Origin: Aminobacter sp. HY435
GTDB lineage: Bacteria; Pseudomonadota; Alphaproteobacteria; Rhizobiales; Rhizobiaceae
DNA: 64,000 nucleotides
NCBI RefSeq assembly: GCF_027568395.1
Contig: NZ_JANKZL010000013.1
Coordinates: forward strand, 62,001-126,000
Reading direction: 5' to 3'
Shown in pieces: positions 16,030 through 42,499 of the stretch. Both the position numbers and the translations under genes were made by a program. The notes below the pieces were generated by a model that was given only the letters and a program-made list of their open reading frames with translations, was not told where the DNA came from and ran no database searches. The number at the start of each line of letters is the position of its first letter. The stretch's first letter is position 1.

Positions 16030-16563
16030 ATGCCCGAACTCGCCAGGAACGAATTCTGGAAAGACCTGAAGCCGATCAGCAAGGTGTTCCAGCCCGATGC
16101 GCTGCCCGAGGTCTACATGGCCGACGCCGCGACCGAGGACGAGCGCTTCTACGTGCCGTTCACCGATACGGTGTCCTCGCGCCCGCTGTGGATCTCGCCG
16201 ACACAGAACAAGTGGTGCGACATCCTGATGGCCAAGGGGCCGGGGCTGGTCAACCGCCACTATCATCCGCACGAGGTGTTCGCCTACACCATCTCCGGCA
16301 AGTGGGGCTATCTCGAGCACGACTGGACCGCGACCGCCGGCGATTTCGTCTATGAAACGCCGGGCGAGGGCCACACGCTCGTCGCCTATGAGCACCCCGA
16401 TCCGATGAAGGTGTTCTTCCAGGTCAAGGGGCCGCTGATCTGGCTCGACGAGACTGGCGAGCCTGACGGCTATTTCGACGTCCACAACTACATCGCCATG
16501 TGCCGCGACCACTACGACAAGGTCGGGCTCGGCCGGGGCTATATCGACAAGCTGTTCCGCTGA
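16030..16563 (+). CDS. Cupin dioxygenase, 2,4'-dihydroxyacetophenone dioxygenase-like
   Basis: A 177-residue single-domain cupin resembling 2,4'-dihydroxyacetophenone dioxygenase, a non-haem iron enzyme that splits an aryl alpha-hydroxyketone into carboxylic acid and formate. The metal motif is NRHYHPHEVF (His77, His79, His81, Glu82), with a second-motif His115 in GEGHTL. Start ATG 16030 follows AAAGGATC. It is co-transcribed with the ThDP enzyme. The substrate is inferred from the family only. Confidence 0.8.
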   Translation: MPELARNEFWKDLKPISKVFQPDALPEVYMADAATEDERFYVPFTDTVSSRPLWISPTQNKWCDILMAKGPGLVNRHYHPHEVFAYTISGKWGYLEHDWTATAGDFVYETPGEGHTLVAYEHPDPMKVFFQVKGPLIWLDETGEPDGYFDVHNYIAMCRDHYDKVGLGRGYIDKLFR

Positions 16564-27490: not shown

Positions 27491-27517
27491 GGATATAGGT
27501 AATCCACTTATCCTACA
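27491..27517. promoter_or_regulatory. Candidate NanR-like operator upstream of oxidoreductase pair
   Basis: GGATATAGGTAATCCACTT (27491-27509) shares GGATAT-N7-CCACTT with 36867-36885 in the nanM/repressor divergent promoter. TATCCTACA (27509-27517) is the exact inverse of TGTAGGATA at 36848-36856. Two matching elements in two promoter regions suggest a common FadR-type regulator. Confidence 0.5.
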
Positions 27518-27534
27518 TCTGGTGGATTGTCTTG

Positions 27535-28500
27535 ATGAGACTGGCCTTTCTCGGTGTTAGCCACTGGCATTCGACAATGCATGGCGAGGCGGCGTTGGCG
27601 GCCGGCGCGAAAATTGCGACTGCCTGGGATCCTTCGCCGGACGCAGCACGCCGGTTTGCCGACAGGTTCGGCTGCGCCGTGGCGGACAGCCTCCAGCAGG
27701 CGCTGGAAACGGCGGATTTCGCAGTCGTCATGGGGCGGCCGTTTGAAATCGCCGAGCGCGGCCGCGCCGTCATCGAGGCGGGCCTGCCGCTGCTCATCGA
27801 AAAGCCGATCGGCATTTCCGCCGCGGCCACCGACCCGCTGATAGAGGCTGCCGCCGCCAGGAACGGCTTTGTCGCCGTGGCGCTGCCGCACGTGCTTGGC
27901 ATGACCGCCGCGCTTCGCGATCTTGACGCGGCTGGCCGCCTCGGGCCGGTCTCGCATTCGCATTTCCGTCTCATCAACGGCCCGCCGCAGCGTTATGTCG
28001 ACGACGGTGTCGCCTGGGTGCTGGACCCGGCGATTGGCGGCGGCGGAGCGCTGCGCAACCTGGGCATCCACGGCATCAACGCCTTTCTCACGCTGGCGGG
28101 TGAACAGCCGGTCGAAGTGGTCAGTGCTTCGCTTGGCCGCCCGCTCCATAACACCGAGGTCGAGGATTATGCGGCAGTGGTGTTGCGCGCCGCCGACGGC
28201 ATGCTCGGCCTCGTCGAGGCCGGCTACACCTTCGCGTCGATGAAGCGCGGCATCTTCGAATGGCGCGTCTCGTCACGGAACGCGACGCTCAGCGACTTCG
28301 GCGACCGCATCGCGCTTTCGACGCTCGACGACGAGGGCCAGCGCGACCTGCCGGTCACCCCGCCAGCCCGCCGCTACGAAGACGTCATGGCCGACACGCT
28401 GAAGCGGCTTGCCGAGGGTCGGCCGCCGGCCGTGTCGCTCGCCGACTGCCGCCGGGCAATGGCGATCATCGACCAATGCTATGCACTACAGGGAGCCTGA
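27535..28500 (+). CDS. Gfo/Idh/MocA family oxidoreductase, atypical nucleotide motif
   Basis: A 321-residue oxidoreductase of the Gfo/Idh/MocA family. The dinucleotide fold starts MRLAFLGVSHWHSTMHG, where the canonical GxGxxG is replaced. The EKP motif (LLIEKPIGI) and the conserved DPAIGGGGALRNLGIHGIN segment of the catalytic domain are present. ATG 27535 is preferred; a TTG three bases upstream is also in frame. It is followed by a second family member after a one-base gap. Family members act on sugars, inositols and, as in E. coli YjhC, on anhydro- or dehydro-sialic acid. The context with nanM makes such a role plausible but unproven. Confidence 0.85.
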   Translation: MRLAFLGVSHWHSTMHGEAALAAGAKIATAWDPSPDAARRFADRFGCAVADSLQQALETADFAVVMGRPFEIAERGRAVIEAGLPLLIEKPIGISAAATDPLIEAAAARNGFVAVALPHVLGMTAALRDLDAAGRLGPVSHSHFRLINGPPQRYVDDGVAWVLDPAIGGGGALRNLGIHGINAFLTLAGEQPVEVVSASLGRPLHNTEVEDYAAVVLRAADGMLGLVEAGYTFASMKRGIFEWRVSSRNATLSDFGDRIALSTLDDEGQRDLPVTPPARRYEDVMADTLKRLAEGRPPAVSLADCRRAMAIIDQCYALQGA

Positions 28501-28501
28501 C

Positions 28502-29491
28502 ATGCTGAAGGTTGGAATAATCGGCGCCGGACATTTCGGTGCGGCACATGCTCAAGCGCTGCGCTCGGTCGACGGCGCGAAACTCGTGGCCGCATGCCGC
28601 AACGATGCCGATGGGCTGAAGTCCTTCACCGACGAATATGGCGGCAAGGGCTATCTCGACTATCGTGACATGTTGGCCGACCCCGAGGTCGACGCAGTGG
28701 TGGTGGCGCTGCCGCATCACTTGCACACCGACGTCGCCATCGCCTGCGCCGAGGCTGGCAAGCACATCATGATAGAGAAGCCGCTGGCCCCGACAGTCGC
28801 CGAGTGCCGCAGGATACTTGCCGCCGCCGACAAGGCCGGCGTGACGCTGATGCCGAGCCACACCATGCGCTTTTCGCTGCCGTTCCTGGCGGCAAAGCGG
28901 GTGATCGATGAAGGCCAGCTCGGCGCCATGCGTTATGGCTCGAGCCGGATGATCAAGCTGTGGATGGAGGGCAACCGCCGTGACTGGCACCTCGATCCGG
29001 CCACTGGCGGTGGCATGCTGTTCACCGCCGGCATCCATGCGCTCGACCGGCTGCTGGCTTTTGCCGGGCGTCGCGCCACCCATGTCAGCGCGATCACCGC
29101 AACGACCTTTCACGAGCAGAAGGCTGATGATGCAGCGCTGCTGCTGATCCGCTTCGGCGACGACGCCGCGGGCCAGGTGGCCAGCATCGGCTACGCCAAC
29201 GGCGCCTTCATTTCCGGCGACGAGCTTGTCTTCGACAATGGTGTTCTGGCCGTGGACTTCTTCAAGGGCGTGACCCTGGGCAAGGACCTCAAGTGGCAAA
29301 AGGTCGAGAACTCGATCGAGCACGATGTCGCCGGCCAGGCGCTGGTCCGGCAGTGGCAGGCCTTCGTTGGGGCAATCGCCACGGGAGCAAAGCCGCCGCT
29401 GACCGGCGAGGACGGCATGCATGTCGTTGCCTGCATCGAGGCCGCATTCAAGGCATCGCGCGAACGCCGCGAAGTGGCGGTCGAAGCGTAA
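28502..29491 (+). CDS. Gfo/Idh/MocA family oxidoreductase
   Basis: A 329-residue oxidoreductase with a canonical nucleotide motif (VGIIGAGHFGAAHA), EKP (IMIEKPLAP) and catalytic-domain segment HLDPATGGGMLFTAGIHALD, with His and Asp positions typical of the family. ATG 28502 follows GGAGCCTGAC and abuts the first oxidoreductase. The pair may act in sequence, for example in redox-neutral epimerisation. Transcription ends at a strong shared terminator with the convergent transporter operon. Confidence 0.9.
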   Translation: MLKVGIIGAGHFGAAHAQALRSVDGAKLVAACRNDADGLKSFTDEYGGKGYLDYRDMLADPEVDAVVVALPHHLHTDVAIACAEAGKHIMIEKPLAPTVAECRRILAAADKAGVTLMPSHTMRFSLPFLAAKRVIDEGQLGAMRYGSSRMIKLWMEGNRRDWHLDPATGGGMLFTAGIHALDRLLAFAGRRATHVSAITATTFHEQKADDAALLLIRFGDDAAGQVASIGYANGAFISGDELVFDNGVLAVDFFKGVTLGKDLKWQKVENSIEHDVAGQALVRQWQAFVGAIATGAKPPLTGEDGMHVVACIEAAFKASRERREVAVEA

Positions 29492-29511
29492 GCAAACAAC
29501 CGACGGGATAC

Positions 29512-29549
29512 AAAAGTCCCCGCCTTCCGAAAGGAGGGCGGGGACTTTT
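29512..29549. terminator. Bidirectional rho-independent terminator
   Basis: AAAAGTCCCCGCC and GGCGGGGACTTTT form a long stem between the converging oxidoreductase pair and transporter operon, with A and T runs on both sides. Confidence 0.9.
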
Positions 29550-29600
29550 GATTTGCCTTGGGAGGCGGTTGGTCGATCGCTGCAAGCAGTGGCAGCGCGT

Positions 29601-30584
29601 TCAGGTGCCTGCCAGTGCCAGGCTTCCTTCAAGATCGTCGCGGATGCATGCCTTGAAATGTCCGGGCGCGACCTCGCGCAGTTCGGGCACGGTGGTTGCG
29701 CAGGCGTCGAGCGCCTTGGGGCAGCGGGTGCGGAAGACGCAGCCGCTCGGCGGGTTGGCGGGGCTTGGAATATCGCCCTTGAGCAACTGGCGCTCGGTCT
29801 TGGCGTTTGGATCGGGCGAGGGGATCGCCGCCATCAGCGCCCGCGTGTAGGGGTGCTGCGGCCTGGCGTAGAGCTCCTCGCTCGATGCGATTTCCATGAT
29901 GCGGCCGAGATAGAGCACGATGACGCGGTCGCAGATGTATTCGACCACGGCGAGGTCATGCGAGATGAACAGCATGGTCAGCCCAAGCTTCTGCTGCAGG
30001 TCGCGCAGCAGGTTGACGACCTGCGCCTGGATCGACACGTCCAGCGCCGAGACCGGCTCATCGGCAACGATGAAGTCGGGGGCAAGCGTCAGCGCCCGGG
30101 CGATGCCGATGCGCTGACGTTGGCCGCCTGAGAACTCGTGAGCGTAGCGGTTGATGGCGTCGGGCGGCAACTCGACCTGCTCAAGCGCCTTTCGCGCGCG
30201 TTCGACGCGCTCCTTCTTGGTGCCGATGCCCTGGATCTTCAGCCCTTCGGTCAGGATTTCGCCGATCGTCATGCGCGGCGACAGCGAGGCGTAGGGGTCC
30301 TGGAAAATATACTGCATGCGCGGACGCTTGCGCCGCATTTCGCTGTTGGAGAGCTTGGTCAGATCCGCGCCGTCGAAGACGATCTCGCCAGAGGTCGGCT
30401 CGATCAGCCGGAGCACGGAGCGGCCGATGGTCGTCTTGCCGCTGCCGGATTCGCCGACCAGCCCGACAACCTCGCCCTTGGCGATGTCGAAGGAGATGTT
30501 TTCGAGGATCTTCAGCGTGGTGCCGCGCGTCGCATAATGCTTGGCGAGGCCACGAACCGAGAGAAGGGGAGCTGGGCTCGTCAT
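29601..30584 (-). CDS. Dipeptide-type ABC transporter ATPase (DppF/SatD-like)
   Basis: A 327-residue ATPase with Walker [10 protein letters not shown], signature FSGGQRQR, Walker [13 protein letters not shown] and the oligopeptide-family C-terminal cysteines ([15 protein letters not shown]). Start ATG 30584 shares its A with the upstream TGA stop. It is the last gene of the operon led by the NanR-like repressor. Confidence 0.93.
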
Positions 30585-31597
30585 CAGGCGATCTCCTGCC
30601 AGCGGATGCAGCGGCTGCCGTGGCGCTCGTTGACGGCGGCCAGTTCGGGCATCGCCGCGCGGCATGCGTCGGTGGCATAGGCGCAGCGCGGTGCAAAGGC
30701 GCAACCCGTGGGCATGTTGGCGAGGCTCGGCACCATGCCGGGGATTGCGTTGAGCTTCTCGCCGCTGCGCTTCATGGCGGTGGCCGTACCGAGCCTCGGC
30801 ATCGATTTGAGCAGGCCCATCGTGTAGGGGTGGCGCGGATTGCGGAAGACGTCGGCGACAGGGCCGAACTCGACGATGCGGCCGGCATACATCACCGCCA
30901 CCCGGTGGGCGATTTCGGCCACGACGCCGAGATTGTGGGTGACGAACAACATGCCCATGCCGCGCTCGCGCTGCAGCTTCTGCATCAGGTCGAGGATCTG
31001 CGCCTGGATGGTGACGTCGAGCGCGGTCGTCGGCTCGTCGGCGATCAGAAGCGTCGGGTCGCAGGCCAGCGCCATGGCGATGGTGGCGCGCTGGCGCATG
31101 CCGCCCGACATCTCGTGCGGATACTGGCTGGCGCGGCGGCGCGCGTCGGGGATGCCGACCTTGTCGAGCAAGCCGACGGCCGCTTCCAGCGCCTCGCGTT
31201 TTCCGATTCCCCGATGAACGCGCAAGGACTCGGATATCTGGTCACCCACGGTGTAGACCGGATTGAGGCTGGTCATCGGTTCCTGGAAGACCATGCCGAT
31301 GTCGTTGCCGCGGATCTGGCGCATCGCCTCCTCGTCGAGCTTGACGAGGTCCTTCAGCTTGCCATCCTTGCCGCGAAACAAAAGCTCCCCAGCGTCGATC
31401 GAGCCGACCTTGCGGGCCAGAAGCCGCATCACCGAAAGGCTGGTCACCGACTTGCCCGAACCCGACTCGCCGACAAGCGCCACGGTCTCGCCGGGGTTGA
31501 CGACTAGGTCGATGCCGTTGACCGCGGCAATCTCCCGGTCGCGCACCCGAAAGACGGTCCGCAGGCCCTTGATCTCGAGAATGGGTTCAGGCGTCAT
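30584..31597 (-). CDS. Dipeptide-type ABC transporter ATPase (DppD/SatD-like)
   Basis: A 337-residue ATPase with Walker A GESGSGKS, signature MSGGMRQR, Walker [13 protein letters not shown] and C-terminal cysteines ([15 protein letters not shown]). It lies ten bases after the DHDPS-family aldolase gene. With the next gene it forms the ATPase pair of the importer; Haemophilus ducreyi SatABCD shows that dipeptide-family transporters can import sialic acid. Confidence 0.93.
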
Positions 31598-31607
31598 CGG
31601 CAGAACC

Positions 31608-32525
31608 TCAGTTCAGCAGGCCGACCGAACGCAGGATCTCGTCGACCTTGCGCGCTTCGGCATCGTTGAGCGGGGCGCGCGGACGCGCCATGACGTTGGT
31701 CGAGATGACGCCGAGGCTGCGCATCGCGGTCTTGAAACCGCCGACGCCGGTGGCGCCGCCGCTGACGCGGCCAGCCGCCACCCAAACGATCTCGAACAGG
31801 CGGCAAAGACGCTCCTGTTCCTTGCGCGCCGCATCCCAGTCGCCACGCTGGGCAGCATCCCAGAGGCGGACATAACCGGCCGGATCGACATTGGCGAGGC
31901 CGGGCACCACGCCATGCGCGCCCATCTGCAACGCGTTGTCGACGACGATCTCCGAGCCGGTCATCAGGAACACGTCCTTGTTGCCGGCGAGGTCGCTCAG
32001 CGCATAACGGAAGTTGCCGTCGTCGCCCGAGGAGTCCTTGAGGCCGATGATGGTGCCTTCCTTGGCCAGCGTCACGACCGTCTGGCGCGACAGCTTGGTA
32101 TGCACGCAGACCGGGATGTCATAGGCGATCAGCGGTACGTCGACGGCGTCGCGGATCATGCGGAAGTGGTCGAGCGTTTCTGCCTGGCTGGTCAGGGTGT
32201 AGAAGGGGGCGGTGACGACAATGGCATCGACGCCGACGGACTTTGCCGTCTGGGCATGGCGGATGACGCGATCGGTCGTCGGGTCGATGACGCCGGCGAT
32301 GACAGGCACGCGCCCGTTGGCGACTTTGACGGTGTGCTCGAGGATCTTGCGACGCTCGGCGTCGTCGTAAAACACCACTTCGCTGGTCGAACCGAGGGCG
32401 AACAGGCCGTGGCAGCCGCCGTCGATCAGGTATTCGAGAACGCGGGTGTAGGACGCGTAGTCGACGGAGAAGTCGTCATTGAGGGGTGTGACGACCGGAG
32501 GAACGACACCAAAGAATTTTGACAT
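31608..32525 (-). CDS. DHDPS/N-acetylneuraminate lyase family aldolase
   Basis: A 305-residue class I aldolase-fold protein of the DapA/NanA family. The Schiff-base Lys is in GLKDSSGD, the catalytic Tyr in AYDIPV, and the carboxylate-binding loop reads GSTSE instead of the usual GSTGE. The 305-residue length matches NanA. Downstream, [10 protein letters not shown] places a Glu roughly where NanA has its sugar-binding Glu. Inside an operon with a NanR-like repressor and beside nanM, N-acetylneuraminate (or other nonulosonate) lyase is the leading guess. A 2-keto-3-deoxy-sugar acid aldolase or dehydratase remains possible. Confidence 0.82.
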
Positions 32526-32544
32526 TTCAGTTCTCTTTCAGGGT

Positions 32545-33417
32545 TCAATTGAGTTCAGCGCGGGGATCGAAGGCATCCCTCAGGCCGTCGCCGATAAAGT
32601 TGATGGCAAGCACTGCGATCACCAGCGCGCCGCCCGGAAACAGCCATTGCCAGGGGAACTGCTCGAGCACCGCGGTAGAGCGTGCCGCATTCAGCATGTT
32701 GCCCCAGCTGGCGGCGGGCGGCGGCACGCCGAGCCCGAGGAAGGACAGGCCAGCCTCGAGCAGGATGGCGTTGGCGACCTGCAGCGTGGCGTAGACCACC
32801 AGGATGTCGATCGAGTTGGACAGTCCGTGGCGGAACAGCAGGTGGCCGAGGCCAGCACCCATGCCACGAGAGGCCATGACGAACTCGCGTTCGCGCAGTT
32901 CGAGCAAACGGGCGCGGATCATGCGCGACAGCACTGGCCAGGACAAAAGCGCAATGACAAATACGGTCGACCAGATGCCCGAGCCGACGATCGAGGCGAG
33001 CACCAGGAGGAAGATGACCGGTGGCAGCGTCATGGCGAGATCGACGGTGCGCATGGCCACCGCGTCGGTCCAGCGACCGCCAAAGGCCGACAAGGCGCCC
33101 ACGATGAAGCCGATCGCCGTCGAGATGACCACTGAAGAGACGGCGACCAAAAGCGAGATGCGGCCGCCTTCAAGGGTGCGGGCCAGCACGTCGCGGCCGA
33201 CGCCATCGGTGCCAAACCAGTGTTTCCACGAAGGTCCAGCGTTCATCGCCAAAAGGTCGATGTCGTTTGGCTTGTAGGGCAGCCACAGCGGATAGGTCAG
33301 CACGGCAAACAGCAGCGGCGTCAGGAGGAACAACCCGAACATGGCGGCGCGGTTCTGGACAAAACGGCCGGCGGCACGCGCCATTGGACCTGAAGAAGAA
33401 ATGGTCAGCACGCTCAT
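32545..33417 (-). CDS. Dipeptide-type ABC transporter permease (DppC/SatC-like)
   Basis: A 290-residue permease with an N-terminal helix ([20 protein letters not shown]), the [19 protein letters not shown] motif and the EAA loop [23 protein letters not shown] 33417 is one base after the upstream stop. The C-terminus [16 protein letters not shown] is typical of the family. Confidence 0.92.
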
Positions 33418-33418
33418 G

Positions 33419-34378
33419 TCAGGCCACCTTGATGCGCGGGTCGATGACCGCATAGGCAAGGTCGGTCAGGATGTTGACGATGATGACGCACGCGCCGATC
33501 ACCAGCGTCGCACCCATGATGACCGGATAGTCGCGGGTTTCGACGGCACTGATCAGCAAAAGGCCCATGCCCGGCCAGTTGAACACGCTCTCGATGAAGA
33601 TCGCGCCGCCAACGGCGAGGCCGATGGTCGAGCCGATGAGGGTGACGACGGGCAGCAGCGCGTTGCGCAGCGCGTGCTTGGTCACCACCCAGAACTCCTT
33701 GACGCCCTTGGCGCGGGCCGTGCGAACGTAGTCCTGGTTGAGCACTTCGAGCATCGAGGCGCGCATGTAGCGCATGATGAGCGCGGCATGCCCGATCGAC
33801 AGCACGACGGCCGGCAGGATGAGATGATGCAGAAGATCGCCGATCGAGAAATCGGTGGCCGGTGTCAGCATGCCGCCCGACGGCGCCCATTTCAGCCGCA
33901 CCGAGAAAACGTAGAGGCCGAGCAGGGCGGTGAGGAAGGCCGGGCTCGAAATGCCGAGCATGGCGAGCACCGAGAACGAGTAGTCCGGCAGCGAGTTGCG
34001 GCGTACGGCGCTGACGATGCCCGAGGCGATGCCAATGACGATGGCGATGGAAAGGCCAGCGCCCATCAGCAAAAGGGTCGGGCCGATGCGCGCGGCGATC
34101 AGGCCGGACACGGTCTCATTGAAGCGCTGCAGCGAGTGCCCGAGATTGCCCTGCACGGCTTGCGATAGCCAGGCGAGATACTGGATCGGCAGCGGCCGGT
34201 CGAGGCCGAGCTGGGTGCGCAGCGCATCCATCGCCTCCTTCGACATGGCGACGTTGGGGTCGATATAGGCGTCGATCGGGTCGCCCGGCGTCAGCTGCAG
34301 CAGCACGAAGATGAGTATCGTCAGCGCGAGCAGCATGCCGAGCCCGATCAACAGGCGATGGAGGCAATAGCGAAGCAT
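33419..34378 (-). CDS. Dipeptide-type ABC transporter permease (DppB/SatB-like)
   Basis: A 319-residue permease beginning [20 protein letters not shown], with the periplasmic loop after [10 protein letters not shown], five further helices and the EAA loop [20 protein letters not shown]. It is separated from the binding-protein gene by 93 bases holding an attenuator-like hairpin. Confidence 0.93.
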
Positions 34379-34419
34379 ATGGGTTCAGCGCCCTTTCCAG
34401 GGAGATGATCTGACTTCCG

Positions 34420-34455
34420 AAAAAAGTGGGGACGACCACTGGGATAGCCGTCCCC
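34420..34455 (-). terminator. Attenuator-type hairpin between binding protein and permease genes
   Basis: On the minus strand GGGGACG (34455-34449) pairs with CGTCCCC (34434-34428) and is followed by a run of six T (34425-34420). This is a complete intrinsic terminator shape inside the operon. It would favour binding protein over permease expression through partial read-through. Confidence 0.7.
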
Positions 34456-34471
34456 CGGGAGGGAAGTTGGC

Positions 34472-36058
34472 CTATTCGGCGATCGACCACTTTTCAGGGT
34501 GGGCCTGGTAGGGGCCGCCGGCGGGGGCCGGGGTCCAGACGAAGTCCTTGAGCTTGTCGGAAGCCACGCCGTAGCGGTTGGCCACCCACATCGTGCCCCA
34601 GGGCAGGTTGGCGTTGGTCGCCTTGCAGACGTCCTGGTAGCGCGCGTCGCGCTTGGCCGCGTCGGTCTCGGCCAATGCTGCATCGAGCGCGTTGGTGACG
34701 TCAGGCATGCGGATGCGCATCAGGTTGGCGCCTGCCGGCGGGATCTGCTTCTCGTTCAGGCCGATGTTGATGTTGGACGCATCGGGGCCGTTCTGCAGGC
34801 CGGCATAGATCAGCGGGAAGTCGCCGGCATTGCCCGACTGCTGATAGACGATCGAGTTGTAGGTCGGCGTGTCGACGGCGCGCGGCACGATGTTGATGCC
34901 GACCTGGGCAAGCATCGCCTGCATCGCGGCCAGCACGTTGGTCGCCAGCGGCGAGGTGTAGTAGGTCAGGATGGTGATCGGCTTGTCGCCGTTGATCTTG
35001 TCCCAGCCGGCCTCCGCCAGCAGCTGCTTGGCCTTCTCGGGATCGTAGGCGTACTGGTCGATGCCTTCCGGCACCAGGCGGTCGGCGACATAGACGCAGT
35101 TGGCGGGCTTGGCCGCGCCGCCGTAGAGGCTCTGGATGATGGCGTTGCGGTCGATGGCGTGCATGAAGGCCTGGCGAACCTTCAGGTCCTTCCAGATCGG
35201 CACTTCCTGGTTGAAGCCGACATAGTTGACGACATAGGAGTCGCCCTCGATGACCTTGAAGGCGTTGTCGCCGTTGAAGGTCGAGACGTCGTTGGAATCG
35301 ACGTAGGTGAACTGGATTTCGCCCGAACGAAGGGCTGCGATCGCTGCGGCCGGGTTGGCGAAGTAGCGGTTGATCAGCTTCTCGGCCGCTGGCTTGCCAC
35401 CGCGGAAATCGGGGTTGGCGGCGAGCTCGACATACTGGTCGGCGACGTATTTGGTGAACTTGAACGGACCGGTGCCAACAGGCGAGGTCGACCACCAGGC
35501 GTTCTTGGCGATCTGCTCGGCCGGGATCGCAGCGAGCGCGTGCTCGGGCAGCATCATCAGCTTGGTCAGCGTGTCGAGCATGCTCGGCGTCGGCGTGCTG
35601 AGCTTCACCACGACGGTATGCTCATCGGGGGTTTCGACGGCTTCGATCGCACCGAGGCGGGCAGCGAACACGGAGCCGGCCTTCTCGTTCTTGGCGAGGT
35701 CGATGGTGAACTTGACGTCCTTCGAGGTGAACGGCTTGCCGTCGTGCCATTTGGTGTCGGCCAGCTTGAAGGTATAGGCCTTCTGGTCGGGGCTGATTTC
35801 GTACGACTCGGCAAGCGCGCCGATCACATTGGCGAGCTTGTCGTCATAGATCACCAGCGGCTCGAAATAGGTGACAAGCCAGGTGAAGCCGCCCGTTGCG
35901 GCGAGCGGGTTGAAATTGCCCTGGAAACCGCCGGGACCAACGTCAAACCCGCCGGAGATGGTGGCGCCTTGCGACATTGCGGGTAGCGTGGTGGCGGCCA
36001 TGCCGCCAAACAGCGCTGCCGAAAGGGCAAGCGCCGAGATCATTGTTCTCAATTTCAT
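34472..36058 (-). CDS. Dipeptide-family ABC transporter substrate-binding protein (SatA-like candidate)
   Basis: A 528-residue family-5 solute-binding protein with a Sec signal peptide (MKLRTMISALALSAALFGGM, cleavage near AMSQG). The family-typical TFKLADTKWHDGKPFTSKDV and the WWSTSPVGTGPFKF block are present. Start ATG 36058 follows GGGAGGAG and overlaps the repressor stop as ATGA. It captures the periplasmic substrate, presumably a nonulosonic acid given the operon content. Confidence 0.9.
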   Translation of the reverse strand: MKLRTMISALALSAALFGGMAATTLPAMSQGATISGGFDVGPGGFQGNFNPLAATGGFTWLVTYFEPLVIYDDKLANVIGALAESYEISPDQKAYTFKLADTKWHDGKPFTSKDVKFTIDLAKNEKAGSVFAARLGAIEAVETPDEHTVVVKLSTPTPSMLDTLTKLMMLPEHALAAIPAEQIAKNAWWSTSPVGTGPFKFTKYVADQYVELAANPDFRGGKPAAEKLINRYFANPAAAIAALRSGEIQFTYVDSNDVSTFNGDNAFKVIEGDSYVVNYVGFNQEVPIWKDLKVRQAFMHAIDRNAIIQSLYGGAAKPANCVYVADRLVPEGIDQYAYDPEKAKQLLAEAGWDKINGDKPITILTYYTSPLATNVLAAMQAMLAQVGINIVPRAVDTPTYNSIVYQQSGNAGDFPLIYAGLQNGPDASNINIGLNEKQIPPAGANLMRIRMPDVTNALDAALAETDAAKRDARYQDVCKATNANLPWGTMWVANRYGVASDKLKDFVWTPAPAGGPYQAHPEKWSIAE

Positions 36059-36789
36059 GTACTCCTCCCATTGGATGCGTTGGTCTTATTATGGGCGATC
36101 ACGCGATTGATCCCCGCATAATGCTTGTCGAGCCGGTCCTTGGCGCCGGCGAGATCACGAGCCTCGACCGCATCGACGATGGCCGCGTGGTCGCGCCAGG
36201 TCTGCATGGGGTCGGAATTGTCGAGATTGACGAAGTCGGATGCCTTGTAGAACGCCAGCCAGAACACCTCGATCAGGCGCGACAGCACGTCATTGTCCTG
36301 GCAGCGGAACAGAAGCTGGTGGAAGTGCCGGTCCTCGTTCGGGAAGCTCTCGCCGCGTTCCGCATGCGTCCGCATCTTGCCCAAAGTCTCGCGCAGTTCG
36401 CGGATGTCCTCGGGCCCGATCATCTCAATCGTCTTTTCGATCAGCCCCACCTCGAGAGTCTGGCGGATAACAATCACTTCTTCGATCTGCTTGAGTGCGC
36501 TGCCCAAGCCATAGGCGAGGTTCTCGAGCAGGGGCTCGAAGGAGAAGGCCTTGACGAAGACGCCGATGCCGCGGCGCGACTCCAGGACGCCCACCGATTC
36601 CAGCGCCTTGATGCCCTCGCGAACCGAATTGCGGCTGACACCCAGCTGGACCGCCAGGTCGCCCTCGGGCGGCAGCGGCGCGCCAGCCTCAAGTCCGTTG
36701 TCGTCGATATAGGCGCGAAGGCTCTCCTGCACGGATACATGCAGAAGGGGGGCTCGTTTCAGCGGCTTGATCGATTTCAGGCTCATCAT
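36055..36789 (-). CDS. FadR-subfamily GntR regulator (NanR-like)
   Basis: A 244-residue GntR protein with N-terminal winged helix (EGDLAVQLGVSRNSVREGIK) and a C-terminal FCD domain with metal-ligand candidates (DEDRHFHQLLF region, DHAAIVDAVEARD). E. coli NanR is in the same subfamily and binds repeated GGTATA boxes; here GGATAT boxes lie in the region upstream of this gene. Start at 36789 or the adjacent ATG 36786; GGAG is better spaced for 36786. It is the first gene of the transporter/aldolase operon and divergent from nanM, implying autoregulation. Confidence 0.87.
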   Translation of the reverse strand: MMSLKSIKPLKRAPLLHVSVQESLRAYIDDNGLEAGAPLPPEGDLAVQLGVSRNSVREGIKALESVGVLESRRGIGVFVKAFSFEPLLENLAYGLGSALKQIEEVIVIRQTLEVGLIEKTIEMIGPEDIRELRETLGKMRTHAERGESFPNEDRHFHQLLFRCQDNDVLSRLIEVFWLAFYKASDFVNLDNSDPMQTWRDHAAIVDAVEARDLAGAKDRLDKHYAGINRVIAHNKTNASNGRST

Positions 36790-36841
36790 CGTCTCCGGTT
36801 GCCTGCGGGCGGTCCGAAAAACAGCTACAGGCGGGAAATTA

Positions 36842-36885
36842 CCCACTTGTAGGATATCTGTCAATTGGATATTAGATGCCCACTT
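36842..36885. promoter_or_regulatory. Repeated operator region between NanR-like gene and nanM
   Basis: The block contains two CCCACTTGT repeats (36842-36850 and 36879-36887) and two GGATAT boxes (36852-36857 and 36867-36872), plus TGTAGGATA at 36848-36856. The same elements recur upstream of the oxidoreductase pair at 27491-27517. The rest of the 363-base interval to nanM shows no gene. Confidence 0.55.
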
Positions 36886-37152
36886 GTTGTCACACAGCAT
36901 CATGGATAGCGCGGATGCTTGACCGACCGAAGTGCAATCGCCGCAGCAACGCCCTGCCGGGCCTCTCCTCCACAACTCTTGGAGGCAGCAGCGCCGCATT
37001 CCACGCCGCCATGTCCGCGGCGGCTTCCCGCCTGATGGCACGGGCCTATCGCCTTTCACCCGAATTCGGAGCGTTCGAGCCGGCAGCGCAGCAGCGCGTG
37101 CCAGGGTTCGCGCTGCGTCAGCCCGCAAGCAACACAATGGAGGAATGCCTGC

Positions 37153-38319
37153 ATGTCCCAGTCTTCAATCGCGAGAACCCTGGCAATGAGCGCCACTGTA
37201 CTTACCCTGTCGACGGCGGCCGCCATGGCCGCTGACGCCTGGCCGGACCTGCCCGTCGGCATCAAGAGCGGTGTCGCCGCCCGCGTCGGCGACACGGCCT
37301 ATGTCGGCCTCGGCTCGGCTGGCACCGACTTCTATTCGCTCGACCTCGCCAATCCCGCCGCAGGCTGGGTGAAGCGTGCGGCCTTTGCCGGCCCGGCCAC
37401 CAACGGCGCGGCGGCAGCCGTTTCCGGCGGCAAGATCTTCGTCTTCAGTGGCAACGGAAAGGCAAGCGCGGACGCCAAGTCGCCGATCATCTTCGACACG
37501 GTCTTCGCCTACGACACCGCATCCGACAGCTGGTCCAAGGTCGACACGGCGACCCCGGTCGGCCTGTCGGGCGCCAAGGCGCTGCCGCTGAAGGACGGCC
37601 GCATCGCGATCGTCGGCGGCTACAACAAGGAATTGTTCGACAAGTATCTCGCCGACGTCGCCGCCACCGACAAGGAGAAGAACCCGGAGGGCTTCAAGAA
37701 GCTCGTCAACGGCTACATGGGCATGGAACCCAAGGAGTATCGCTGGAACACCAAGGTGCTGTCCTACGACCCCTCGGCCAACAGCTGGGGCACGCTGGGC
37801 GACAACCCGTTCCTGCCCAACTGCGATTCCGCCGTCGTAGCTCGGGGCGACGACGCCTTCATGGTGATCAGCGGCGAGGTCAAGCCGGGCCTGCGCACGC
37901 CCGAGGTCAAGCAGGTCAAGGTCGATGCCCAGGCGGATGACTGGCACAAGCTGGCCGACCTGCCCAAGCCTTCGGCCAATGAGCGCCAGGAAGGCGTTGC
38001 CGGCGCTTTCGCCGGTGAGGCGGGAGGGGCCGTGCTGGTTGCCGGCGGCGCCAATTTCGTCGGCGCCCAGGCCAATGCCGAAGCCGGCAAATGGTTTGCC
38101 CATGACGGTCTCAAGAAGGGCTGGCGTGACGAGGTCTACGCCTTTGACGGCAAGGGCTGGAAGGAAGCGGGCAAGCTGCCGCACGGCCTTGCCTATGGCG
38201 CTTCCTTCTCGACAGCTGAAGGCCTGGTCATCGTCGGCGGCGAGGACGGCGAGGGCAAGCCGCGCAGCGAGGTCTTCCTGCTGAAATGGGACGGCAAGGC
38301 GGTCTCCGTGGACAACTGA
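37153..38319 (+). CDS. nanM: N-acetylneuraminate epimerase (mutarotase), kelch beta-propeller
   Basis: A 388-residue secreted kelch-repeat protein closely matching E. coli NanM, which equilibrates sialic acid anomers in the periplasm. The signal peptide is residues 1-27 (cleavage after MAADA-type site). Family hallmarks appear in order: [70 protein letters not shown] and [15 protein letters not shown] lies upstream of the ATG. It is divergent from the NanR-like repressor and is the anchor for reading this region as sialic acid metabolism. Confidence 0.9.
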
Positions 38320-38466: not shown

Positions 38467-39624
38467 ATGGATTATTCCATGGCGATGGAATATCGCATCC
38501 ACCCGTTGCCGCTGGATCGGCTCGTCGGCCCCGCGTCGCGCGCCACCGAAACGCTTGTCCGCCTCGATGAGCGCATCGCCCGCTCGCCTGTCGGCCAAGG
38601 GTTCGTCGAGCGTAGCCATTTCATGGACGCAGCGTCGTCGCTGTGGCTCGACGGCGAGCTCGTGCATCTCGAGGACCTGGTCCTGCACGATGCCCGGATG
38701 GACATCCGCACGCCGACTCATGAACTGAGCCGGGCGCATGAAATCCTGCGCCTGCGGCGCCAGATGCTCGGCAACAAGCCGGACTGGGCGCTTGGCCGCG
38801 AGGGGTTGTCCATCCTGTGCGGGCGAGGGGCGGCAACGGCGGTGCATGAGGACAAGCCGCAGTCGTCCGCGCGCGTGGCCGAACTTGCCGATGATGACGA
38901 CGACGATGCAGATGGCGACAACAGTCTGAGTGTCGAAATGGCTGCGCTGGACGCCGCCCTGGCGCGCGCCCAGGCTGTCGTGGAGCGCGCCCTCGACGAG
39001 ACGGCTTCCGTTGTCGCGAGCAGGTCGGCCAAGGCAGCTTCGAACGACCGCAACCCGCTGATCTACGACCTCGAATGGGACGAGAGCGAGCGCCTTGCCG
39101 AGTGGACGCTGCGGGTAGCGGAAACCGCGGGCTTGCCCGCGGTGCTTCGCGCGGCGGTCGCGTTCGAAGCCTGGAATGTGATTGCGCCGTTGCAGCATGC
39201 GCCCTGGCTGGGGCGTCTTCTCATCGCCGCCTTGCTGCGCGAGGCGGGGCTCACATCGGCGCATCTGAGCGCCCTCAACATCGGCGCCCGCATGATCCCG
39301 CGTGACAGGCGCAACGCTCCCGAACGCGCCGCCCGGCTGATCGCCTTTCTGGACGGCGTCCATGAAACCGCGGCTGCGGGGCTGAAGGAACACGACCGGC
39401 TGATACTCGCCAAGACACAGATGGAACGCCGGCTCAAGGGGCGGCGGTCGACCTCCAAGCTGCCGGAGGTGATCGAATTCGTGCTGTCGCGGCCGCTGGT
39501 TACGTCCGGCATGGTGGAAAAGCAGGTCGGCGTTACCGCTGCCGGCGCGCTCGGCCTGATTGCCCAGCTCGACCTGCGCGAAGTCACCGGACGCGGCCGG
39601 TATCGTGCCTGGGGCATCCTCTGA
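38467..39624 (+). CDS. RHE_PE00001 family protein (DUF1612 plus helix-turn-helix)
   Basis: A 385-residue protein of a family seen mainly on rhizobial plasmids and accessory regions. The conserved N-terminal part includes GFVERSHFMDAASSLWLDGE, LVHLEDLVLHDARMDIRTPT and HELSRAHEILRLRR. An acidic linker (DDDDDDADGD) divides it from a helical domain and a C-terminal winged-helix-like segment (VTSGMVEKQVGVTAAGALGL). Start may be 38467, 38479 or 38485; no clear ribosome site decides. Function is unknown, probably DNA-binding. It has no operon partner here. Confidence 0.8.
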   Translation: MDYSMAMEYRIHPLPLDRLVGPASRATETLVRLDERIARSPVGQGFVERSHFMDAASSLWLDGELVHLEDLVLHDARMDIRTPTHELSRAHEILRLRRQMLGNKPDWALGREGLSILCGRGAATAVHEDKPQSSARVAELADDDDDDADGDNSLSVEMAALDAALARAQAVVERALDETASVVASRSAKAASNDRNPLIYDLEWDESERLAEWTLRVAETAGLPAVLRAAVAFEAWNVIAPLQHAPWLGRLLIAALLREAGLTSAHLSALNIGARMIPRDRRNAPERAARLIAFLDGVHETAAAGLKEHDRLILAKTQMERRLKGRRSTSKLPEVIEFVLSRPLVTSGMVEKQVGVTAAGALGLIAQLDLREVTGRGRYRAWGIL

Positions 39625-39686: not shown

Positions 39687-39835
39687 GTTGATGAATTTTA
39701 TTGACATGCCTCATCCGGGCTGCAATTCTCACTACACCGGGCTTCGGGAGGAAGGCCGGACAAATCAATCCACATGGCGCGGCGCTGCGGCGGCCGGCAA
39801 TGATTGTTGATCTGGCTTCGGCCAAGGGAGGGAAC

Positions 39836-40864
39836 TTGCGTAAATTTCTGAGCACGCTCGCGCTTGCCGCGGCGACCACGACCATTCTCGGCTCGGGTTA
39901 TGCCCAGTCTGCCGAAAATCCATTCAAGTGCGCACCCGGCGAAAAATACGTCATGAACGTCATGGTGTCTGGCGTCGAATACTGGTTCCCGGTCTACGAG
40001 ATGTTCAAGCAGGCCGGCCAGCAGTTCGGCTGCGAGACCGAATACACCGGCACGCCGGAATATGACGTCAACAAGCAGATTGCGACCTTCGACCAGGCGC
40101 TTGCCCAGAAGCCGGCTGGCATCCTGGTTCATCCGATGAATTCCGATCCGTTCATCGAGCCGATCAACCGCGCCATCGACCAGGGCACGGCGGTTGTGAC
40201 CTTTGCTGCCGACTCGCCCAATTCCAAGCGTACCTCGTTCATCACCTCCGACAATCTGGCTGAAGGCACCTATGCCGCTGATGCCGTCGCCAAGGCGATG
40301 GACGGCAAGGGCGAATACGCCGTCCTCGAAAACCCCGGCCAGGACAATCACGACAAGCGCGTCTCGGCCTTCATCGCCCGCATGGAAGCCAAGTGGCCGG
40401 ACATGAAGCTGGTTGGTCGCGCGGCCTCCAACCAGGATCCGACCAAGGCCTATCAGGCGGTGCTCAGCCTGGCCCAGGCGCACCCTGAACTGGGCGCGGT
40501 GTTCATGCCCGAGGCCAACTCGGCCATCGGCGCCGCACAGGCGGCCAAGGAAGGCGGCGGCAAGATCAAGGTCATGCTCGCTGACGTCAACGCCAAGATC
40601 CTCGACATGATCAAGGCCGGCGAGATCTACGGGTCGGTCAACCCCAACCAGGGCATGCAGGGCTACATGGGCTTCATGCTTTTGTGGCTGGCCAAGCATC
40701 CCGAACTGATCGACCCGATGAACGACACCAAGCGTTCGGGCGCCAACGGCATGAGCGTGCCCTTCGTCGACAACGGCTTCTCCATCGTCACGGCCGAAAA
40801 CGCCGACGACTTCTACTGGGACAAGTACCTGCAGCGTCGCGGCACCAAGGGCATCGAGGAATAA
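39836..40864 (+). CDS. Sugar ABC transporter substrate-binding protein (RbsB-like)
   Basis: A 342-residue periplasmic binding protein of the ribose/autoinducer type. I start at TTG 39836, with GGGAGGGA just upstream, giving a compact signal peptide (RKFLSTLALAAATTTILGSG) with cleavage near AQSAEN. An in-frame ATG lies at 39800. The mature chain has the type-1 fold pattern (PEYDVNKQIATFDQALAQKP, ILVHPMNSDP). It is the first gene of the large operon; a hairpin follows it. Confidence 0.88.
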   Translation: MRKFLSTLALAAATTTILGSGYAQSAENPFKCAPGEKYVMNVMVSGVEYWFPVYEMFKQAGQQFGCETEYTGTPEYDVNKQIATFDQALAQKPAGILVHPMNSDPFIEPINRAIDQGTAVVTFAADSPNSKRTSFITSDNLAEGTYAADAVAKAMDGKGEYAVLENPGQDNHDKRVSAFIARMEAKWPDMKLVGRAASNQDPTKAYQAVLSLAQAHPELGAVFMPEANSAIGAAQAAKEGGGKIKVMLADVNAKILDMIKAGEIYGSVNPNQGMQGYMGFMLLWLAKHPELIDPMNDTKRSGANGMSVPFVDNGFSIVTAENADDFYWDKYLQRRGTKGIEE

Positions 40865-40900
40865 GCAACCCTCGGTCATTCGTGCTTGACTGCGATATCG

Positions 40901-40924
40901 TGACGGGGCGTTTGCGCCCCGTCA
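40901..40924 (+). other. Intercistronic hairpin after binding-protein gene
   Basis: TGACGGGGCG (40901-40910) and CGCCCCGTCA (40915-40924) form a perfect 10-bp stem with a TTTG loop and no T run. Such structures usually protect the upstream binding-protein mRNA from 3' decay and lower downstream expression. Confidence 0.7.
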
Positions 40925-40966
40925 TCCAGCCTTGAACCTCTCCCTTGCGCCAGTGAAAGTTGACAG

Positions 40967-42499
40967 ATGTCGACGCCCATCCTCGAGATCAGGAACATTT
41001 CGAAGTCGTTCGGCCCGGTAAAGGCTCTGACCGGCATCGACTTTGCGCTCGCCGAGGGTGAGATTCATGCGCTGTGCGGCGAAAATGGCGCCGGCAAGTC
41101 GACGCTGATGAACATCATCGCCGGCGTCCTGCAGCCCGACGAAGGCGACATCCGCATTGCCGGCGACAAGGTTGTGGTTGCCTCGCCGGCCGCGGCCCAG
41201 AAGCTTGGCATCGCGCTCGTCCACCAGGAGATCGCGCTTTGCCCGGACGCGACGGTGGCCGAGAACATCTACATGTCCGCCATCAACGGTCGGCGTGCTC
41301 CGCTGATGAATTTCAATCGGCTCCACGCCGATGCGCAGAAGGTCATGGACCTCCTGGCGCCGATCCCCGTGCGGACCAAGGTCGCTGATCTTTCCATTTC
41401 CAACCAGCAGCTCGTCGAGATCGCCAAGGCGCTGACGCTCGACTGCCGCGTGCTCATCCTCGACGAGCCCACCGCGGCACTGACCGAGCCTGAGGCGCAG
41501 CGCCTGTTCGGCATTGTCCGCGGTCTCAAGGCACGCGGCATCTCCGTTGTCTACATCAGCCATCGCATGGCCGAGATCTTTTCGCTGTGCGACCGTGTGA
41601 CGGTTTTCCGCGACGGCCGTTACGTCGCCACAGATGACATCGCGGCGGTGACGCCCGACGATGTCGTGCGCAAGATGGTTGGCCGCGAGATCACCCAGCT
41701 TTACCCCGACAAGTTGCAAGGAACCCCAGGGACCTCGCTGTTGTCGGTCAGGCGCCTGTCGGACGGTTCGCGCTGCGACGATGTCAGCTTCGAGCTGCGC
41801 GCCGGCGAGATTCTCGGCATTGGCGGGCTGATCGGTTCGGGCCGCAGCGAAATCGCGCAAGCCTTGTGCGGCCTTCGCGCCGCCAGGTCAGGCGACGTGA
41901 CCATCGGCGGCGCGCCCGTCCGCGTCTCCAGCTATTCCGACGCCGTCAAGGCAGGGCTGGTCTACCTCTCCGAAGACCGCAAGGGCTCGGGCGTGTTTCT
42001 CGACATGTCGATTGCCGCCAACGTCTCGGCTCTCGACCTTGCCAAGCTGACCGGCGCGAGCGGTCTGCTCGACCGGCGCGCCGAAAACGCCCAGGCGCAG
42101 GACCTGACAAAACGCCTTGGCGTGCGCATGGCCGGCGTCGGCGCAGCCGTGTCGACGCTGAGCGGCGGCAACCAGCAGAAGGTGGCCATCGCCAAGCAGC
42201 TTTCGGTCGACCCCAAGGTGATGATCATGGACGAGCCGACGCGCGGCATCGACGTCGGCGCCAAGGCCGAGATCCATCGCCTGTTGCGCGACCTGTCTCG
42301 GCGCGGAGTCGGCATCATCGTCATCTCGTCGGAAATGCCCGAACTGATCGGCCTGTGCGACCGCGTGCTGGTTGTCCGGGAAGGCCGGATAGCCGGCGAA
42401 CTGGCATCGGACGAATTGAGCGAGGAAGCGATCATCATGCTCGCGTCGGGCGTCCAGCCAACAGCCCATATCAATCAGCAGGCCCACAATGTCGCCTAG
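40967..42499 (+). CDS. Sugar ABC transporter double-ATPase (RbsA/LsrA-like)
   Basis: A 510-residue fusion of two ABC domains. The first has Walker [10 protein letters not shown], Walker [14 protein letters not shown], and [13 protein letters not shown] in place of the LSGGQ signature. The second has LIGSGRSE in the degenerate Walker A place, [15 protein letters not shown] and [13 protein letters not shown]. This layout is diagnostic of CUT2 carbohydrate importers. It overlaps the permease gene by 11 bases. Confidence 0.94.

Follow-up and report, generated by a model that had tools for sequence, protein, structure and literature searches.

The DNA analysed here, a stretch of 64,000 nucleotides from Aminobacter sp. 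HY435 (contig NZ_JANKZL010000013.1, positions 62,001 to 126,000; hereafter the window), carries a ten-gene cluster which, together with genes elsewhere in the genome, very probably gives its host a complete gene set for importing and consuming sialic acid. In this cluster the gene for NanM, an N-acetylneuraminate mutarotase, faces a regulator-led operon on the minus strand that encodes an ATP-binding cassette (ABC) importer and an aldolase, and a pair of Gfo/Idh/MocA-type oxidoreductase genes (Gfo1 and Gfo2) stands at the far end. We hold with high confidence that the cluster serves the scavenging and catabolism of sialic acid, most likely N-acetylneuraminic acid (Neu5Ac). The core of this reading is strongly supported because the cluster is conserved across phyla and because its aldolase is related to CgNal, the N-acetylneuraminate lyase of Corynebacterium glutamicum; each enzymatic activity, the substrate and the regulation are what we infer from sequence. 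Pathways of this kind are known; the host is an unusual one. An earlier note on this DNA had proposed a sialic-acid regulon: its core (NanM, FadR-type regulator, dipeptide-family importer and lyase) stands firmly, and four of its side claims do not.

NanM had been recognised there with confidence, and rightly so: the protein scores 487.2 bits against the curated model NF010730 (cut-off 416) and 444 bits against PF24996 (cut-off 45). It is 35.9% identical to Escherichia coli NanM over 365 positions, aligns with E. coli YjhT (2uvk) across nearly its length and has in common with E. coli NanM a GE-x-KPGLRT stretch, which we take to be the Glu209/Arg215 region with the residue roles assigned there. 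In the host genome (4.6 Mb, 29 contigs) it is the sole PF24996 match. Of 394 family genomes sampled, nine have any match to PF24996, eight exceed the cut-off and five carry a full-length match of at least 428 bits; these five are the host (G000), G306, G376, G263 and G308 (G, C and L numbers are our handles for genomes, contigs and loci), and three of them belong to one genus. In a class sample of 385 genomes, 37 have any match and 20 exceed the cut-off when pieces are summed; the host excepted, the best single piece reaches 39.6 bits. Kelch matches in other genera were considered as NanM and rejected, only the five family genomes having full-length matches above 400 bits. A search of 72,556 plasmid records returned 50 matches, Microvirga lotononidis being the closest (63%), followed by four Deinococcus plasmids (38-41%).

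The aldolase is one of seven genes of the dihydrodipicolinate synthase (DHDPS) family in the host genome, and the earlier assignment to the NanA family is sustained in that it belongs to the DHDPS/NAL family and has CgNal as its closest solved relative. Its best solved relatives are 5c54 and 5c55 (259 and 258 bits), with the third at 156 bits, and it is 46.4% identical to the 5c54 stretch; identity to E. coli NanA is 29%. We take 5c54 to be CgNal because the CgNal residues Tyr138, Ser143, Lys166, Gly196, Glu198, Thr199 and Val212, as listed in an excerpt of PMC5380162, land on the expected letters of 5c54. According to the same excerpt, CgNal has a DHDPS-like sequence and yet both cleaves and makes Neu5Ac, a shown Neu5Ac lyase (PMC5380162). 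Y135 and K163 of the window's enzyme align with the catalytic Tyr138 and the Schiff-base Lys166 of CgNal. All 17 aldolases of the family sample are the same at 11 of 13 positions compared, the exceptions being Thr47 to Ser in G361 and Val206 to Ile in G343. In a tree of 34 rows, with long branches among the distant ones, CgNal joins the 24 cluster aldolases with support 80/78, and the Deinococcus sequences fall outside the alphaproteobacterial rows.

The company of the aldolase is conserved. Regulator, binding protein, OppB, OppC, aldolase, OppD and OppF keep this order in all five NanM genomes, and in 11 of the 12 family genomes that have an orthologue of the aldolase (E <= 1e-80) without NanM; in the twelfth (G128, L099, C33:1-14000) the aldolase directly follows the regulator at the end of a contig, and no importer gene is seen there. 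In another phylum, plasmids of Deinococcus psychrotolerans, Deinococcus sp. D7000, D. deserti and D. ficus carry NanM divergent to FadR, binding protein, OppB, OppC, DHDPS, NanE and ROK, nearly the divergent order of the window. Two of these four stretches also include OppD, OppF and two Gfo genes, which the other two lack; a SIS-domain gene occurs in three, nagA in one and a sialidase in one, namely D7000, where it adjoins NanM and has the Pfam domains BNR_2 and sialidase lectin insertion. The SIS protein of D7000 has NagB-II as its best model (317 bits, under the cut-off of 430). Compared with the window's proteins, the Deinococcus aldolases are 56-59% identical, the binding proteins 45-48%, the NanM proteins 39-41% and the Gfo proteins 36-40%. 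On a Microvirga lotononidis plasmid everything lies in one run, with ROK, NanE, Gfo2 and Gfo1 divergent to FadR, binding protein, OppB, OppC, aldolase, OppD, OppF and NanM (aldolase 74% and NanM 61% identical to the window's). Thus Deinococcus and Microvirga hold nanE and the ROK kinase inside the cluster, whereas the host has them on another contig. On a plasmid of Shinella sp. HZN7 the aldolase operon is divergent to GntR-NanE-ROK and a sugar importer, and its NanE and ROK are 79% and 78% identical to those of the host. The G306 locus (L041, G306:C3) sits on a plasmid-sized contig of 310,190 bases in a genome of five contigs. Horizontal spread fits these facts, because the G306 contig is plasmid-sized and named plasmids carry the copies of Deinococcus, Microvirga and Shinella.

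This recurrence also speaks against another alternative, in which a peptide or opine importer operon of the usual sort is a chance neighbour of NanM. The importer is indeed of the dipeptide/opine family, and the solved relatives of its binding protein bind peptides (many of them), opines (likewise), nickel, haem or sugars, with none labelled sialic acid among the best 60 of 94. But in two phyla the arrangement of importer, aldolase and NanM recurs in company with nanE and a ROK kinase gene, and all five strong NanM genes of the family sample fall within the 17 aldolase genomes, so that we give mere coincidence next to no credence. The family-5 binding protein would be the sialic-acid receptor.

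Where would the product of the lyase go? The earlier note saw that nanK, nanE and nagAB were missing and supposed that the downstream route may differ. They are indeed missing from the window, but not from the genome, and the route need not differ: when nanK and nanE were sought elsewhere in the genome, a full-length NanE was found at C22:128705-129271 (NF002231, 270 bits, cut-off 189), directly followed by a ROK gene whose best model is N-acetylmannosamine kinase, and on contig C1 NagA scores over its cut-off, just after a SIS protein whose best model is NagB-II. Because these NanE, NanK-like, NagA and NagB-II-like genes sit elsewhere in the genome, a candidate is present for every step from Neu5Ac to fructose-6-phosphate, and we reject the argument for a deviant route from missing nanEK and nagAB. 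Within the trio NanA/NanK/NanE, NanE is over its cut-off, the ROK kinase is assigned by relation, under its cut-off, and the aldolase by relation to CgNal. Another route for N-acetylmannosamine (ManNAc) is possible because genes of the N-acetylglucosamine (GlcNAc) 2-epimerase family are present, two of them in the host, in all five NanM genomes (the 12 NanM-less ones were not searched).

The nanE cluster of the host (L065 8781-15576, on G000:C22) consists of GntR, NanE, ROK and an ABC importer. Among 14 other stretches (L107-L120), chosen from the 56 genomes with full-length NanE, GntR, NanE-ROK (often one NanE-ROK frame) and an importer stand together in ten, and an eleventh (L109) has the same neighbours, its NanE having been missed by gene picking; aldolase probes matched none of the 14. 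Such a separate nanE-ROK-importer cluster may serve ManNAc use. Full-length NanE is found in all five NanM genomes versus 56 of 394 overall, figures that ignore kinship. G263 and G308 have a fused NanE-ROK protein in the interval from regulator to NanM; the G263 fusion matches NanE at 232 bits and ROK at 147.

Several results weigh against a sialic-acid pathway. Orthologues of the aldolase occur in 17 of the 394 family genomes, and 12 of the 17 lack NanM; nine of these 12 have no full-length NanE, and the three that do (G128, G349, G361) are near the background frequency. The aldolase is under the NanA equivalog cut-offs (NF003164, 111 bits against 281; TIGR00683, 96 against 382; CgNal was not scored). 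Its letters at the GXXGE motif are GSTSE (GSSGE in CgNal), the second glycine being serine in it and in all 16 orthologues aligned, and in place of the CgNal substrate residues Ser143, Gly196, Glu198, Thr199 and Val212 it has Cys, Gly, Glu, Ile and Val, three of five the same, with the isoleucine at Thr199. The NanK-like ROK protein scores 219 bits under a cut-off of 283, the NagB-II-like SIS protein 309 under 430, and the regulator 89.8 against the 260 of the NanR model NF003011. No sialidase of PF13088, the one such family searched, is encoded in the host genome. Finally, genomes of this genus keep nanE-nanK apart, in a cluster that has a GntR regulator and an importer to itself, and this cluster is found also in a congener without NanM (G143).

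Some of these facts would suit a different scheme, in which the importer and aldolase serve another nonulosonate or 3-deoxy-2-keto sugar acid (2-keto-3-deoxynononic acid, KDN; 3-deoxy-manno-octulosonic acid, Kdo; or another plant or bacterial acid), NanM has only a ring-opening part and the product is not ManNAc. The many aldolase genomes without NanM or NanE and the changed GXXGE motif speak for it, as does the second DHDPS-family gene found beside the operon in nine of the 12 NanM-less genomes. According to an excerpt of PMC8141875, KDN too is a substrate of NanM and of the anomerase YhcH. Yet NanE and a ROK kinase form part of the cluster in the four Deinococcus plasmids and in Microvirga and are its neighbours in G263, G308 and Shinella, a sialidase stands next to NanM in Deinococcus sp. 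D7000, and the aldolase tree makes the common NanM-less form look derived. Nor need the lack of NanE by itself exclude ManNAc use, because GlcNAc 2-epimerase-family genes are present in all five NanM genomes. We consider this scheme improbable and retain the use of sialic acid as our reading of the host cluster.

The NanM-less operon is seen, for example, on pRL12 of Rhizobium johnstonii 3841 (RL_RS34550-RL_RS34585). Its regulator, binding protein, permeases, aldolase and ATPases are 71-82% identical to those of the window; unlike the window, the 25-kb stretch has no NanM or nanEK match, and a second DHDPS-family gene follows the operon (L127 14924-15859). Within the stretches read, such a second gene (e.g. 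L093 12436-13365) is accompanied by a sulfatase in three of the 12 NanM-less genomes (L103 17823-19286, L104 and L102); the second gene was family-scanned in two of its nine loci and the sulfatase in one of three (L103), the others being assigned by clustering. The Gfo pair occurs in two of the 12. Either NanM-less strains use sialic acid via another downstream route, or the operon has turned to another substrate in them. The common NanM-less form looks derived because the Deinococcus and Microvirga aldolases branch outside most Rhizobium ones; three NanM-less rows (G281, G322 and G343) branch before Microvirga.

The regulator, 24.6% identical to E. coli NanR, has upstream of it an operator-like palindrome that overlaps a TTGACA-N17-TAATTT promoter recognised by eye. 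Its consensus, CTTGTAGGATATCCTACAAG, is matched at 15-18 of 20 positions upstream of the regulator in all 20 alphaproteobacterial loci examined, whereas 1,985 random fragments of the window reach 13 at most; the consensus was written after viewing the sequences, the promoters compared share descent and the null comes from this window only. The four Deinococcus upstream regions reach only 10-11. A 15-mer from the palindrome, allowing up to three mismatches, has three matches in the window, the exact one included, where 0.23 are expected; the two inexact ones, each with three mismatches, lie before Gfo1 (27508-27522) and elsewhere, at 16291. The similar promoter elements that had been claimed for the Gfo pair are therefore there as this 15-mer and not as the full palindrome, which before Gfo1 is matched at 11 of 20 positions, the level of chance. 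Because of this mismatch, the element before Gfo1 as a shared promoter element is only suggestive.

The Gfo pair adjoins the locus in all five NanM genomes of the family sample. It shares the operon's direction in G306 and G376 and has the opposite one in the host, G263 and G308, and it accompanies NanM, importer and aldolase also in Microvirga and in two of four Deinococcus clusters. The earlier note likened the pair to YjhC, an action that stays unproven in view of the residues. Gfo2 is 28.9% identical to E. coli NanY/YjhC, which is only a middling match (74 bits; the best has 117), and Gfo1 is more distant still, with no close solved relative (best 43 bits). In an excerpt of PMC7535918, the sialic-acid oxidoreductase RgNanOx requires Lys93, Lys163, His175, His176 and His178. 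Compared with NanY, the EKP lysine and the final histidine are conserved in Gfo2, which has other residues at the pair His175, His176: at the YHH-IH of NanY it reads FTAGIH and Gfo1 reads RNLGIH, neither having the histidine pair of HXXH. By eye, Gfo1 is also without the usual GXGXXG. By this sequence signature the two do not make a NanOx pair, because the NanY histidine pair is missing from both; a role in the use of sialic acid is likely because of their gene company. Could they nonetheless carry out the NanOx/YjhC reaction, from 2,7-anhydro-Neu5Ac or 2-deoxy-2,3-didehydro-Neu5Ac (Neu5Ac2en) to Neu5Ac? The association with NanM, importer and aldolase and the retained lysine and histidine make this a possibility, toward which we do not lean, given that both replaced histidines are required for activity in that excerpt (PMC7535918) and that YjhC is so modest a relative. 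A bolder conjecture, which we find doubtful, is that Gfo1-Gfo2 performs an NAD (nicotinamide adenine dinucleotide)-dependent conversion of a modified sialic acid unlike that of NanOx/YjhC, and that in Rhizobium the NanM-less operon, with its second DHDPS-family enzyme, is a derived form acting on some other nonulosonate or keto-sugar acid encountered in the surroundings of plants.

Taken together, we envision the following sequence of events. Free sialic acid would pass the outer membrane, and periplasmic NanM would interconvert its anomers and possibly its anhydro forms. Uptake would then be the task of the family-5 binding protein and the OppBCDF-type ABC importer. The Gfo pair may convert an anhydro or otherwise modified form to Neu5Ac, which the CgNal-type aldolase would split into ManNAc and pyruvate. 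ManNAc could proceed by the NanK-like kinase and NanE (C22), then by NagA and the NagB-II-like deaminase (C1), to fructose-6-phosphate. The FCD/GntR regulator probably binds the CTTG-N12-CAAG palindrome at its own promoter.

Because the genome has no PF13088 sialidase and no match to NeuB, the host would rely on other organisms to release free sialic acid and is unlikely to recycle its own nonulosonates. The earlier suggestion that surface nonulosonates are recycled is thus disfavoured where the cell's own are meant, and we rejected self-recycling because the host genome has no NeuB; among the five NanM genomes, one has it. Of the four NanM genomes besides the host, one has a strong and another a weak PF13088 match. 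The strong one is a BNR_2 sialidase-type protein in G306 (219 bits; G306:C2:122901-123875, L128), on a different contig from the NanM locus of that genome; the single NeuB-family protein among the five is in G308 (221 bits; G308:C3:293408-294142, L130).

The features of the cluster are collected in the table. The operon of a FadR-type regulator, dipeptide-family importer and NAL-family aldolase, with two Gfo genes at the far end, was described in the earlier note; all of it was located, and all ten genes are intact and lie where first reported. Outside the conserved cluster, a DUF1612/HTH_13 protein directly follows NanM (window 38467-39624), and further downstream are genes of a sugar-type ABC importer (Peripla_BP_4 protein, ABC ATPase; window 39755-42499).

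Table. Genes of the candidate sialic-acid cluster and the predicted operator, in window coordinates.
Feature	Position	Strand	Evidence
Gfo1, divergent Gfo/Idh/MocA-type oxidoreductase	27532-28500	+	PF22725 65 bits, PF01408 45 bits
Gfo2, Gfo/Idh/MocA oxidoreductase	28496-29491	+	PF01408 112 bits
ABC importer ATPase, OppF type	29601-30587	-	NCBIfam OppF/DppF-type models 377-393 bits, under cut-offs
ABC importer ATPase, OppD type	30584-31597	-	NCBIfam OppD/DppD-type models 350-365 bits, under cut-offs
DHDPS/NAL-family aldolase, putative CgNal-type N-acetylneuraminate lyase	31608-32525	-	PF00701 180 bits
ABC importer permease, OppC type	32545-33429	-	NCBIfam Opp4C 321 bits, cut-off 350
ABC importer permease, OppB type	33419-34378	-	NCBIfam Opp2B 303 bits, cut-off 350
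Family-5 solute-binding protein, signal-like N-terminus (by eye)	34472-36058	-	PF00496 291 bits
FCD/GntR (FadR-type) regulator, NanR-like by position	36055-36786	-	PF07729 86 bits, PF00392 57 bits
Predicted operator, consensus CTTGTAGGATATCCTACAAG	36846-36865	.	16/20 positions match
NanM, N-acetylneuraminate mutarotase/epimerase, signal-like N-terminus (by eye)	37153-38319	+	NF010730, PF24996

Discussion of sialic-acid catabolism has mostly centred on bacteria of the gut and of mucosal surfaces. A cluster common to Rhizobiales and Deinococcus, on plasmids in Deinococcus and Microvirga, supports a niche for it in soil and on plant surfaces and points to strains suited to testing this. The two Gfo enzymes pose a concrete biochemical question, and a common Rhizobium operon, annotated in the records examined only as dihydrodipicolinate synthase and ABC importer, gains a testable class of substrates. 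The earlier note knew of no description of such a system. In fact, soil-bacterial sialic-acid catabolism (excerpt of PMC8754123) and Rhizobiales clusters (excerpt of PMC10570557) are already in print. In the latter excerpt, a phycosphere sample yields Rhizobiales sialic-acid clusters, and nanE of Rhizobiales is reported from many environments. Among the open-access papers searched we found none on this locus in rhizobia or Aminobacter, on sialic-acid catabolism in Deinococcus or on the operon of R. leguminosarum 3841.

Among known systems, the transporters of the SAT type belong to the dipeptide family, and the importer of the window is likened to them by family (PF00496) and gene company only. 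An excerpt of PMC7535918 names the SAT-type (satABCD) ABC importers as Neu5Ac transporters beside nan genes. The nan regulon of E. coli (nanATEK-nanQ, nanCMS, nanXY) has, like our host, NanM, a lyase, NanE, NanK, a GntR-type NanR and a Gfo oxidoreductase; in the host an ABC importer replaces NanT/NanX, the lyase is of the CgNal type and the Gfo pair is without the NanY histidine pair. C. glutamicum, which takes up sialic acid through an ABC importer of the dipeptide family, is a soil bacterium but, unlike the host, an actinobacterium. Its CgNal and the window's aldolase (46% identical) share one DHDPS-like lyase branch. In an excerpt of PMC8754123 it is said to grow on Neu5Ac and to have a full gene set.

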